From Hymenobacter rubidus (GTDB lineage: Bacteria; Bacteroidota; Bacteroidia; Cytophagales; Hymenobacteraceae): a stretch of DNA of 64,000 nucleotides. Positions 9,196 to 13,092 of this stretch are shown one piece after another; within the stretch, counting starts at the first letter, position 1; every line of letters starts with the position of its first letter. Made by a program: the position numbers and the translations under genes. The stretch lies in NCBI RefSeq assembly GCF_016734815.1, contig NZ_JAERQF010000031.1, positions 1 to 64,000 of the forward strand, read 5' to 3'. Below the pieces are notes generated by a model. The model had not been told where the DNA came from and did not search any database. It was given only the letters and a program-made list of their open reading frames with translations.

Positions 9196-9233
9196 GCAAA
9201 AAGCCCGTCCAACTCCTTGGACGGGCTTTTTGC
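9196..9233. terminator. Bidirectional intrinsic terminator
   Basis: Perfect 15-bp stem GCAAAAAGCCCGTCC / GGACGGGCTTTTTGC. It separates the plus-strand membrane protein from the minus-strand Roadblock operon and can serve both. Confidence 0.9.
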
Positions 9234-9263: not shown

Positions 9264-9644
9264 TTAGTTGATTTCGTCAACGTGGGCCCGCAGCACCTCG
9301 CGTGCAATGGCCAGGTTGGTGTCGCGCGAGTTGACCACGAGGTAGATGAACTTGGTGCCGTTGTTGACCAGCTTGATGATGTGCAGCTGGTTGGTGAGGG
9401 TGATGAGGATGTCCTCGATGTTCTCGCCGCTGAGCTTGAGGGCCGACATGGCCTTTTGCTTCTGCTTCACCACTTCCGTGTTGTAGGCCGCCGCCGTTTC
9501 CGGGTTGATGCTCGGCGAGTTCGAGTGCGACGCCAGCGCCATGCCGGAGCTGATATCGACTACCGCCACGGCCACCAGGCCCGGCAAATCGTTGATGATG
9601 GCCTCGATGGCTTTGCCGGCAGCAGTATTTTTAGAATAGGCCAT
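9264..9644 (-). CDS. Roadblock/LC7-like protein, copy 1
   Basis: A 126-residue soluble protein with a Roadblock/LC7 fold pattern: an N-terminal helix (AIEAIINDLPG), strands with SSGMALASHSN, a long helix (about residues 45-72) and C-terminal strands plus helix (FIYLVVNSRDTNLAIAREVL). In other bacteria Roadblock proteins such as MglB act on small Ras-like GTPases or as dimeric scaffolds. The start at 9644 is set by alignment with copy 2. It is the last gene of an apparent five-gene operon, followed by a terminator. Its last three quarters are identical at DNA level to copy 2 at 11090-11470. Confidence 0.8.
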   Translation of the reverse strand: MAYSKNTAAGKAIEAIINDLPGLVAVAVVDISSGMALASHSNSPSINPETAAAYNTEVVKQKQKAMSALKLSGENIEDILITLTNQLHIIKLVNNGTKFIYLVVNSRDTNLAIAREVLRAHVDEIN

Positions 9645-9764
9645 AGTGGCTGATGGAGAAAGAGAAATGGATAAAGAAGATTCTTTAAGCTTGTTCGCAA
9701 CGTGCTTACGGTAGGTCCTCGCTTTCACTTAGGATAACACGAATAGGCAACTAAAGACAGTTGA

Positions 9765-10460
9765 TTAGAAGAAAAGCCAGTGCTTGCGCTTGGCCACTTG
9801 GGGCTGCAGGCTCACGCCCTCAGCGGTAACGTCGGCCGCTTTCAGCTCCTGGTCGGCATAGCCGGCGTAGCCATACTGCAGCGTCGCAGAAGTGGCTTCG
9901 GCGGCGGGTACGCGCAGGGCGTAGTTCCCGGCCGCGTCGGTGCTGGCGCCAAAGTGCGTGCCCTTACGCAGCACGGTGGCGCCTACCAGCGGCTGGCCTT
10001 TTTCGTTCAGGATGCGGCCGTGCACCGTCACCATGCGCGTGGCGCTGGCTTCGGCGGCGGCACCGGCGGCAGTTTCCAAAGCGGCCAGTTCTACGGGGGC
10101 CGTGGTTATCACTGGCGAGTTGTGCGAGGGCAGGCGGGTGCCGGCCATCGATGCGCCGGCCACCAGCGCGGCGCCGGCCACCATGGTCAGGGCCCGGCGA
10201 CGGAAGCGCTGCGGCTGCTCCCGAATAAAGAGCAGCTGCTTCTGCACCCACGTGGTGGAGGCAGCGGCTTCGGCTCCTTCCGTGGTGGTCATTTCGTGCC
10301 AGCGCGTCACGGTGGAGTGGGCCTGCGTAGCATCTTTGCGCAGGTACTCTTCCACGGCGCGGGCCGAGGAGCGGACCAGGTCGCCGCGCAGGTAGGCGTC
10401 CCGGTACACCGGCAACAGGTCGCCGGTTTGCGGGTCGAAGGGGGTAGCGGTAAGCTTCAT
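9765..10460 (-). CDS. Membrane protein with CarboxypepD_reg-like domain
   Basis: A 231-residue predicted single-pass protein. Residues 1-88 are a soluble, probably cytoplasmic region resembling the N-terminal part of anti-sigma-like proteins (YLRGDL, then ARAVEEYLRKD). A transmembrane helix follows basic residues RFRRRA at about 90-108. Residues 145-215 form a beta-sandwich of the carboxypeptidase regulatory type (VHGRILNEKGQPLVGATV, then TDAAGNYALRVP) expected in the periplasm. It sits inside the Roadblock operon, between two Roadblock genes, so it may anchor or signal to them. That link is inference. Confidence 0.75.
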   Translation of the reverse strand: MKLTATPFDPQTGDLLPVYRDAYLRGDLVRSSARAVEEYLRKDATQAHSTVTRWHEMTTTEGAEAAASTTWVQKQLLFIREQPQRFRRRALTMVAGAALVAGASMAGTRLPSHNSPVITTAPVELAALETAAGAAAEASATRMVTVHGRILNEKGQPLVGATVLRKGTHFGASTDAAGNYALRVPAAEATSATLQYGYAGYADQELKAADVTAEGVSLQPQVAKRKHWLFF

Positions 10461-10525
10461 GGGATGATGGAGAAAAAAGGTGAGAAAATGAACATTGTGG
10501 CTTCATCAGCCAGCCACGAGCCTTT

Positions 10526-10990
10526 TTAGGCTTCCGCCACCGTTCCCAGCAGCGCCAAACTGCTGTGCATCACCGCACGGGCAATGCCCAGATTGGTATC
10601 CCGGCTATCCACTGCCAGGTACACAAACTGCTGCCTGCTCGGCACCAGCCGCACCAATTGCAGCTGCGTGGGTAGCGTCAGGAGCAGTTCTTCCAGGTCA
10701 TCAGGTTCCGTGCCTTGCGTGAGCAGCAGCGCCCGCACCTGCCGCACCGCCTCAACGTCGAAGCCAACAACCGCCGCAGGACGCAGCGTGCGCTCAGCGG
10801 TGTAGGTGGCCAGCGGCCGGCCGGTGCTCAGGTCCACCACGGCAGCCATTAGCAAATCAGGCAGTTCGGCCAGCAAATGCTGCATAGCCTGCTCGATGCC
10901 AGCGCTGCCCGGGCCGGTAGTGGCCAGTTCAATCTGGTTGGGAGCCGGCCCGGTCAGGCGCTGCAGTTGCTTGAGAAAGGGGATTTTCAT
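10526..10990 (-). CDS. Roadblock/LC7-like protein, divergent paralogue
   Basis: A 154-residue protein that aligns with its neighbours over the Roadblock region: helix LLAELPDLL, strand STGRPLATY, then LVPSRQQFVYLAVDSRDTN and a terminal helix. It carries an extra 35-residue N-terminal extension. The start at 10990 (MKIPFLKQL) is chosen because it opens a plausible helix; upstream in-frame sequence is low-quality. It lies 65 bp upstream of the membrane-protein gene and 99 bp downstream of copy 2. Function as for the other copies is unknown; it may form heterodimers with them. Confidence 0.75.
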   Translation of the reverse strand: MKIPFLKQLQRLTGPAPNQIELATTGPGSAGIEQAMQHLLAELPDLLMAAVVDLSTGRPLATYTAERTLRPAAVVGFDVEAVRQVRALLLTQGTEPDDLEELLLTLPTQLQLVRLVPSRQQFVYLAVDSRDTNLGIARAVMHSSLALLGTVAEA

Positions 10991-11089
10991 AATGCGCGGG
11001 TCCTCCGTCCCCGGCTGGTGCCCGGCCCGCTGCCCCGCCGCGGTTCCCGGCAATCGTGTTGCAACCCGACGGCGGGGCCGTCGCCGAAA

Positions 11090-11470
11090 TTAATTGAGCT
11101 GGTTCGCGGTAGCCCGCAGCACCTCGCGTGCAATGGCCAGGTTGGTGTCGCGCGAGTTGACCACGAGGTAGATGAACTTGGTGCCGTTGTTGACCAGCTT
11201 GATGATGTGCAGCTGGTTGGTGAGGGTGATGAGGATGTCCTCGATGTTCTCGCCGCTGAGCTTGAGGGCCGACATGGCCTTTTGCTTCTGCTTCACCACT
11301 TCCGTGTTGTAGGCCGCCGCCGTTTCCGGGTTGATGCTCGGCGAGTTCGAGTGCGACGCCAGCGCCATGCCCGAGGTGGTGTCGACTACGGCAATAGCCA
11401 CGAGGCCCGGCAGGTCGTTGAGAACCTCCTGTACTACTTTGCCAGCGGGAGAATTAGTTGAATAAGCCAT
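11090..11470 (-). CDS. Roadblock/LC7-like protein, copy 2
   Basis: A 126-residue paralogue of copy 1. The first 30 residues differ at many positions (AYSTNSPAGKVVQEVLNDLP against AYSKNTAAGKAIEAIINDLP), whereas residues 32-119 are identical, with no silent change seen across 260 bp (11112-11371 against 9286-9545). This indicates recent gene conversion or strong recent duplication of part of the gene. Its ATG is well supported by the matching N-terminus of copy 1. It is the second gene of the apparent operon. Confidence 0.8.
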   Translation of the reverse strand: MAYSTNSPAGKVVQEVLNDLPGLVAIAVVDTTSGMALASHSNSPSINPETAAAYNTEVVKQKQKAMSALKLSGENIEDILITLTNQLHIIKLVNNGTKFIYLVVNSRDTNLAIAREVLRATANQLN

Positions 11471-11515
11471 GTTGGGGAATGAAAAAGGGTGGGTAAAATG
11501 AGTTAAAACAAACGG

Positions 11516-11971
11516 TTATGGAATAATCGATTTCAATATTTCACGGGCCAGGGCCAGGCTTGTATCCTGCGTTTTCACGGCCAGATGCACAAACCACTCG
11601 CCGCTTTTCGCCATCCGAATGAGGTGAAGCTGCTTGCGAAACGGCACGAGAATATCTTCTAGCCGCTCGCCGCGCATGCCCAACCGGACCATAGTTAGCT
11701 GCTGCTGGCGCACAAGTTGCGCGTGGCACTCTGCCACACCTGCGGTGTCTAAGCCGCGTGCCCGGCCTATGTGTGCCAGGCAGGTTCCAGTAGCCGTTTC
11801 CACCACCATAATGGTTGAGGGTCCGGAAATCTGAACTAAAACATGATTTATTATTTTTTTAATAGCAGCGCCTGTCACCACTGCGCTTTCCTTTACCTCC
11901 AGCGAAGTATTCGCTTGTTTTCTATTAGCACGTCTGAGCAGTAATTTATCAGGAACGACAACAGAAATCAT
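11516..11971 (-). CDS. Roadblock/LC7-like protein, most divergent paralogue
   Basis: A 151-residue protein with the same pattern in its last 110 residues: TATGTCLAHIG strand, a long helix with LVRQQQLTMVRLGMRGERLE, then WFVHLAVKTQDTSLALAREIL. The N-terminal 40 residues are basic and lower in GC than the neighbours, and the upstream DNA is AT-rich. It is the first gene of the apparent operon, 45 bp before copy 2. The start is not certain, since no later Met lies before the domain. Confidence 0.7.
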   Translation of the reverse strand: MISVVVPDKLLLRRANRKQANTSLEVKESAVVTGAAIKKIINHVLVQISGPSTIMVVETATGTCLAHIGRARGLDTAGVAECHAQLVRQQQLTMVRLGMRGERLEDILVPFRKQLHLIRMAKSGEWFVHLAVKTQDTSLALAREILKSIIP

Positions 11972-12384
11972 TGGATAAAAACCTAATCTAATTCGTTATA
12001 ATTTTCACATTATATGATATTTACCTCTCTCCAATAGCAACTTTTTTCTAATACAAAGCTCAACAACAATGGTACCCAATAAAAATAACATTCGTCACTT
12101 TTCAATATGATTTACATTACTTAAGAAATTAAAAAATCATATTCATTAATGTAATTAAACCCATTTCATGTAATAAACAAGCTCAACACTACCAATCCCG
12201 TTTCGATTTCGCTGCTTTGACGTCAAATGCGTTATCCCACGCTCCACCTGGCGAAGTCAATCGATGGCCAAATCCCGATTCTCAGTTGTTGCCAGCGCAA
12301 TCGCTTTGATTCGTTCAAGAACTGCCCGAGCAGGCTTGTCGGGGCAGTTTGCTCCACTCTCTACCGCCGGGCGCAGCACCAGCT
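11972..12384. other. AT-rich gene-free region between FNR-like gene and Roadblock operon
   Basis: No gene is seen in 413 bp. Positions 11972-12185 are strongly AT-rich against a GC-rich background and probably hold the operon promoter; a TAGGTTTT sequence lies on the minus strand near 11977-11984, one mismatch from TAnnTTTG. A hairpin with a 10-bp stem and one bulge (AACTGCCCGA / TCGGGGCAGTT) at 12320-12349 follows the FNR-like gene but lacks a clear T-run. Confidence 0.5.
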
Positions 12385-13092
12385 TTAATCGTAGAGCGAA
12401 GCAATCTGGCTAAGGCCATTCAAGTCAAGAATCGTCACCTGGCTGCCGCGGGTGCTGATAATGCCTGCTTCTTTAAACTCCGAAAGCAAGCGGGTTGCCG
12501 TTTCCTTGGCCGTGCCCACCAGCGCCGCCAGGTCTTCCCGCGAGACAGCCACGCTGAACGGCAACAGCGCCTCCTTCTCCCGAAACGTATGGTACAGCAG
12601 CAGCAGCGCCTCGGCCAGACGCTCGCGCACGGGCTTGTAGGCCAAGTGCAGCAGTTGCACTTCGGCCTCGCCCAAGGCCTTGGCCATCATCTGCATCAGG
12701 GAAGTTGAGAATTGCTGATTCGATTGCCACACCCGGAAGAAATCGGCGCGCGGAATAAAGCACACCACGCAGTCTTCCAATGCCACGGCCGAGGTTGAAT
12801 ATTGGGGCTCGGTGAGCACCGAATGAAAGCCCAACATGTCGCCGCCTTTTGCCAGGCGGGTGATTTGCTCTTTGCCTTCGCCGCTGGCTTTGGTAATCTT
12901 GATTTTGCCTTGGCTCACGCAATGCAGCCCCAGCGCCGGGCTGCCCTCGTGAAAGATGCGCTGTCCCTTCTGATAGCTCTGCGATACCTTACTACGAGCG
13001 ATAAAATCCAATTCCTCTAATTGACAGCAGCCCATCAGCGGCCCTTTGCGGTGAGGGCATTCCTGACACGTCGGAGTGATAAACTTTGCCAT
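12385..13092 (-). CDS. Crp/Fnr family regulator with FNR-like cysteines
   Basis: A 235-residue regulator with an N-terminal cyclic-nucleotide-binding-type beta-roll (residues 30-145) and a C-terminal helix-turn-helix (SREDLAALVGTAKETATRLL). The N-terminus has Cys9, Cys12, Cys22 and Cys23; Cys111 in ALEDCVVCFIP sits where E. coli FNR has Cys122 (MVCEIP). FNR uses three N-terminal cysteines plus Cys122 to hold an oxygen-labile [4Fe-4S] cluster, so oxygen or NO sensing is plausible here, although the N-terminal spacing differs. It is monocistronic with a good promoter, upstream of the Roadblock operon in the same direction. Confidence 0.9.
   Translation of the reverse strand: MAKFITPTCQECPHRKGPLMGCCQLEELDFIARSKVSQSYQKGQRIFHEGSPALGLHCVSQGKIKITKASGEGKEQITRLAKGGDMLGFHSVLTEPQYSTSAVALEDCVVCFIPRADFFRVWQSNQQFSTSLMQMMAKALGEAEVQLLHLAYKPVRERLAEALLLLYHTFREKEALLPFSVAVSREDLAALVGTAKETATRLLSEFKEAGIISTRGSQVTILDLNGLSQIASLYD

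Follow-up and report, generated by a model that had tools for sequence, protein, structure and literature searches.

Five consecutive open reading frames, all on the minus strand, occupy positions 9264-11971 of the window, that is, of the whole stretch of 64,000 nucleotides of Hymenobacter rubidus DNA that was analysed. They follow one another in the order A-B-C-D-E, as checked by ORF analysis, and are separated along that order by gaps of 45, 99, 65 and 120 bp. The genes and the elements associated with them are the following.

11516-11971, minus strand: gene A, type-2 Roadblock-like protein, 151 aa (family HMM, E 1.5e-37; typed by tree and HMM)
11090-11470, minus strand: gene B, type-1 (conserved) Roadblock-like protein, 126 aa (AlphaFold, Foldseek, VIA)
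10526-10990, minus strand: gene C, type-2 Roadblock-like protein, 154 aa (family HMM, E 4e-40; typed by tree and HMM)
9765-10460, minus strand: gene D, membrane protein, 231 aa (Pfam, alignment, model, fold match, hydropathy)
9264-9644, minus strand: gene E, type-1 Roadblock-like protein, near copy of B, 126 aa (sequence identity)
11112-11371, minus strand: 260-bp tract of B identical to 9286-9545 in E, with diverged flanks (gene-conversion signature)
11972-12200, no strand assigned: AT-rich leader, presumed promoter region (73% AT against 39% in the whole window)
9196-9233, minus strand: symmetrical Rho-independent terminator-like hairpin after E (dG -31.2 kcal/mol, z -6.6, by folding)
12385-13092, minus strand: gene of an FNR/CRP-family regulator, upstream of the operon (linked in 47 of 57 loci with D)

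The preferred starts of C and E, read from the sequence, are the ATG codons at 10990 and 9644, and gene A is optional among the operons of relatives. The AT-rich stretch ahead of A measures 413 bp, and the AT level of the leader was reached by just 6 of 6378 sampled stretches of equal length. A scan of the region for consensus promoters and terminators gave nothing above chance; it overlooked the hairpin at 9196-9233, which is perfect, because the A/T arms get counted as stem, and folding revealed it. The operon leader holds a perfect palindrome, TTTGACGTCAAA (12216-12227); a role as regulator site was weighed and dropped, as the palindrome is missing from 45 related leaders. The five-gene feature is real and non-random: the same-strand run with short gaps, the AT-rich region before it and the terminator after it, all named in the original prediction made from the DNA letters, were recovered in the coordinates, in the gaps of 45 to 120 bp, in the AT content and in the folding energy.

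Predicted Roadblock fold and two alternating types

A, B, C and E encode paralogues, with an amino acid identity over the domain of 92% for B/E and of 32-39% for the other pairs. Relatives were gathered and 57 of them were aligned as the family alignment. Pfam and NCBIfam gave no match for A, B, C or E, and nothing exceeded the curated cut-off of Robl_LC7 (PF03259) in the four proteins, in the whole of their own genome or in the 57 family members. PDB sequences searched with B alone (phmmer) or with a B-family profile (hmmsearch) gave no match, and the best sequence matches of B came nearly all from Hymenobacter. As these sequence searches were empty or sub-threshold, the Roadblock assignment therefore rests on structure and on profile-profile comparison.

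The Roadblock/LC7 topology is alpha-beta-beta-alpha-beta-beta-beta-alpha. The predicted fold was computed for B, whose AlphaFold model (pLDDT 94) shows the order helix-two strands-helix-three strands-helix; A, C and E are tied to this fold by the family HMM, which they match at E values from 1e-37 to 1e-53. In Foldseek the top match of B was Myxococcus MglB (6hjm, E 7e-7, probability 1.00), followed by more MglB and by Ragulator and Asgard Roadblock chains. Comparison with VIA gave Z scores of 16.6 and 16.5 over 115-116 aligned residues, with MglB second by Z and tied with an Asgard Roadblock, an rmsd of 1.8 over 115 residues for the match at 16.5, and Ragulator chains again among the structural matches. 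Alignment of the family with canonical Bacteroidota Roadblocks by hhalign reached 93.9% (E 1.5e-7), a match owed to the broader Roadblock set, since the Roadblocks of genus g98 alone gave a weak 3.1%; the controls stayed at or below 0.8% for 44 unrelated families and for column-shuffled alignments, and at 0.1% for reversed ones. By the predicted fold of B as well as by the profile similarity of the family, the proteins are assigned to the Roadblock/LC7 superfamily. Hence the earlier claim of four Roadblock-like paralogues holds, through paralogy, the predicted fold of B and the family HMM for A, C and E, and the structure prediction that had been named as its check returned a Roadblock fold for B and not the absence of one.

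In a tree of 109 domains, A and C fall with other type-2 proteins in one clade (support 100/94), and B and E lie within the slow, conserved type 1. Typing of whole loci with type-specific HMMs gave the order 1-2-1 in 28, 2-1 in 18, 2-1-2-1 in 8 and 1-2 in 4, the window operon being 2-1-2-1 along A-B-C-E; runs of the same type are uncommon, and borderline type calls account for several. Helix alpha-2, described as functionally important in Roadblock proteins (PMC7949163), is enriched in positions that tell the two types apart (9 of 22, p 0.006). Alternation together with the clustering in alpha-2 is the trace expected of obligate heterodimers, and the two types may pair. The number of Roadblock genes per multi-Roadblock operon varies (2, 3 or 4), and Hymenobacter genomes carry up to ten genes of the family.

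The two type-1 genes of the window, which cluster together in the tree (support 100/88), have DNA that is 89.8% identical over the gene and 93.4% over the domain, and share the fully identical tract listed above. The two type-1 domains of H. caeli (L058) are 100% identical, and at L034 and L036 B and E cluster by position instead. In some species, both type-1 copies are kept alike by recurrent gene conversion.

The membrane companion

Protein D consists of a helical N-terminal domain (residues 1-85), a transmembrane segment at about 88-108, a transthyretin-like CarboxypepD_reg domain (143-215) that scores above the Pfam cut-off, and a conserved C-terminal tail rich in basic and aromatic residues. 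Foldseek of D matched the C-terminal domain only, the closest structure being the NTE domain of a SusC transporter (9hfj). The N-terminal domain is helical and specific, and is modelled with modest confidence. The hydrophobic stretch is preceded by a basic run, and its hydropathy is marginal (Kyte-Doolittle about 1.5 in the window protein, mean 1.69 across 24 orthologues); with that margin, D is probably a single-pass protein with its N-terminus inside.

Co-occurrence was followed in 120 Hymenobacteraceae genomes. Full-length relatives of D (E <1e-79) were present in all 41 with strong Roadblock matches and in none of the 79 others (Fisher p 4e-33 over the sample and 5e-10 within the genus, shared ancestry being uncorrected in both), and D adjoins Roadblock genes in 57 of 66 multi-Roadblock loci, far above chance. 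The genome of H. rubidus itself carries a second set, D', type 2 and type 1, on contig C66. Both parts of the earlier claim about this gene are thereby sustained, namely a membrane protein with a carboxypeptidase-regulatory-like domain, as found by Pfam and with a marginal transmembrane segment, and its membership of the set.

In at least 4 of the 9 loci that lack D, a different protein is encoded, made up of an N-terminal domain, a transmembrane segment and a periplasmic OmpA domain. As this protein stands in the place of D, a Roadblock pair plus a single-pass envelope protein is therefore a recurrent theme. At L083, L095, L108 and L110, Usp-EmrA-EmrB is followed by the transmembrane/OmpA protein, replacing D, and by a type 2/type 1 pair. 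Many type-1 genes are solitary and lack D, and D is therefore dispensable for some type-1 functions.

Neighbouring regulators and the search for a GTPase

The FNR/CRP-family gene lies on the same strand as the operon, usually 380-730 bp ahead of the first Roadblock domain. Its product has N-terminal cysteines (CxxC...CC) and a further cysteine pair in the sensor domain, and is possibly an iron-sulphur oxygen sensor. A second association involves type-1 genes without D, which are often divergent from a PAS hybrid histidine kinase accompanied by a LytTR regulator. The loci with the full arrangement of LytTR regulator, kinase and type-1 gene are L077, L078, L079, L085, L088, L090, L092, L068, L096 and the plasmid locus L227. 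This arrangement is possibly an output module.

It also underlies an alternative for the operon, in which type-1 Roadblocks would act mainly on the hybrid histidine kinase and LytTR regulator, with D only tuning them from the envelope. In conservons, CvnB works with CvnA. The arrangement recurs at no fewer than nine Hymenobacter loci and on a plasmid of H. tibetensis, the kinase and LytTR genes follow the main operon in L040, and L187 encodes a receiver-Roadblock fusion; however, the window operon has no adjoining kinase and it is D, not a kinase, that always co-occurs, and we regard such a regulator as unlikely.

Roadblock proteins usually regulate small GTPases. The original prediction noted that no GTPase gene lies nearby, and indeed neither a GTPase nor a kinase gene stands beside the window operon. 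It offered as one reading that the four proteins are adapters for a distant GTPase, which a search for MglA-like genes elsewhere in the genome was to reveal. A dedicated profile for MglA/CvnD-like GTPases, which strongly detects such a GTPase in control genomes, found none in the 120 family genomes, the genome of H. rubidus included, and in the latter the Arf and Roc models had no matches beyond IF-2, Der and Era, which are housekeeping GTPases. The adapter reading found no support here and is unlikely.

Outside Hymenobacter, a canonical Roadblock adjoins a member of the family in 23 of 39 loci by our own count, and a small GTPase of one and the same family is also present in five: L187, L188, L196, L197 and the plasmid locus L226 of Agarilytica. 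The GTPase at L196 matches the ATP_bind_1, Ras and Arf models, and L188 and L187 are, in the tree, the nearest relatives of Hymenobacter type 1 outside the genus. With a GTPase beside outside relatives and none in the 120 family genomes, the GTPase was therefore lost or never arrived in this lineage. Loci in genomes of one genus of the same class (L180-L186, L155-L165) pair a canonical Roadblock with a member of the family and have no detectable small GTPase. The g98 and g99 genomes of the same class that carry family members showed no small GTPase by the profile (13 genomes); the Arf model matched large GTPase frames only (15 genomes). A GTPase encoded elsewhere, be it one that escaped detection, a housekeeping protein such as Era, Der or IF-2, or another NTPase, would fit the usual role of Roadblocks and the five outside loci; the profile result with its positive control and the housekeeping-only matches make it distinctly improbable, even if a partner NTPase from another family is conceivable.

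Members of the family also occur on plasmids of Acinetobacter, Comamonas, Streptomyces, Deinococcus, Agarilytica and Nocardia (L220, L223, L224, L225, L226, L231), at 41-49% identity. They are named hypothetical protein where annotated, and an annotated or detected Roadblock gene often adjoins them.

A proposed membrane-tethered scaffold among Roadblock systems

The interpretation that we prefer, with a probability of about 40%, is a scaffold of Roadblock proteins that is tethered to the membrane and functions with no Ras-like GTPase. It starts from computed observations: the fold of B, the two alternating types, the obligate co-occurrence of D and the lack of a detectable MglA/CvnD-like GTPase. 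The type-1 proteins B and E would form cytoplasmic heterodimers with the type-2 proteins A and C. The docking site of these would be the N-terminal domain of D on the cytoplasmic side, and D would span the inner membrane once and expose its transthyretin-like domain to the periplasm. D would report a ligand or a state of the periplasm, which the scaffold would relay to a signalling output. This output is probably a two-component system resembling the pair of hybrid kinase and LytTR regulator that neighbours type-1 Roadblocks at other loci of the genus. Redox control of the set is suggested by the FNR-like gene upstream.

Helical N-domain, one transmembrane segment and periplasmic domain form a common anti-sigma layout. 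That D, which shares it, is a decayed anti-sigma-like regulator whose N-domain binds a sigma factor, modulated by the Roadblocks, is very doubtful, for the likeness to zf-HC2 (E 0.0015 in the N-domain of one orthologue, 0.0064 or worse in 3 of 24 whole D members) stays below the cut-off everywhere (best orthologue 19.0 against 22.2 bits) and is absent from the window D, the zinc ligands are missing, and no sigma factor gene is among the recognised genes of the linked loci.

Against the scaffold model speak the marginal transmembrane segment of D, the modest confidence of its N-domain, the varying Roadblock number and the many type-1 genes without D. The original prediction had offered a GTPase-free scaffold anchored by the membrane protein: that no GTPase was found and that D belongs to the set agrees with it, and the binding to D is what we infer. 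The GTPase-free scaffold with a membrane anchor is thus the reading that survives.

The known roles of Roadblock proteins are chiefly those of platforms or GAPs that serve small GTPases. The MglA/MglB GTPase-GAP module includes a small GTPase in the genome, which was found in 0 of the 120 family genomes. With MglB and MglC, the MglA regulators of Myxococcus and Thermus, the operon proteins have a fold in common by prediction, as well as the likeness of paralogous Roadblocks working together, exemplified by the MglB-MglC complex (PMC7949163). They differ in an identity of 12-19%, in scoring below PF03259, in the lack of an MglA-like GTPase in the genome and in the linked membrane protein.

A conservon, known from Streptomyces, combines the CvnA kinase, the CvnB Roadblock, CvnC and the CvnD GTPase in one operon. 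The likeness lies in the Roadblock near a histidine kinase at some Hymenobacter loci and in the ancestral-looking L196 and L197, where a Roadblock is joined by a small GTPase (Pfam Ras/Arf, ATP_bind_1) and a second Roadblock of the family. In contrast, Hymenobacter has no recognised GTPase or CvnC, the window operon has no adjoining kinase or GTPase and its genome no such GTPase, and D and the two alternating Roadblock types are new. By definition, therefore, the operon is neither an MglA/MglB module nor a conservon, and by prediction it is a Roadblock-fold system. The alternation is new to the original prediction as well, which likewise did not mention the gene conversion between B and E, the link to the FNR gene or the relatives that adjoin a GTPase.

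The Ragulator (LAMTOR1-5) offers an analogy only, through four Roadblocks of two kinds with one membrane protein: D has no sign of kinship to LAMTOR1, there is no Rag GTPase and the Roadblocks do not always number four. As their number may be 2, 3 or 4, no fixed Ragulator-like stoichiometry is therefore conserved. Tentatively, the set could still be a bacterial Ragulator analogue without a GTPase, with two Roadblock kinds as heterodimers on a transmembrane sensor, an ancestral GTPase regulator having become a GTPase-independent envelope scaffold.

Orphan MglB homologues resemble the operon proteins in that no GTPase is linked to these Roadblock proteins; 328 have been listed, none experimentally characterised as of 2014 (Wuichet and Sogaard-Andersen, PMC4316618). 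Those were found as MglB/Robl_LC7 homologues, whereas the present family scores under the PF03259 cut-off, comes with an obligate membrane companion and shows a putative internal type-1/type-2 pairing. Among the papers searched, none dealt with Roadblock proteins in Hymenobacter.

The operon exposes a Roadblock-like family that reaches Actinomycetota, Deinococcota and Pseudomonadota, named hypothetical protein in the plasmid records checked and often adjoined by an annotated Roadblock. Moreover, with its fixed alternating order and its obligate membrane companion, and with the expected GTPase not found, it provides a clean genetic system for the role of Roadblock proteins without a switch.
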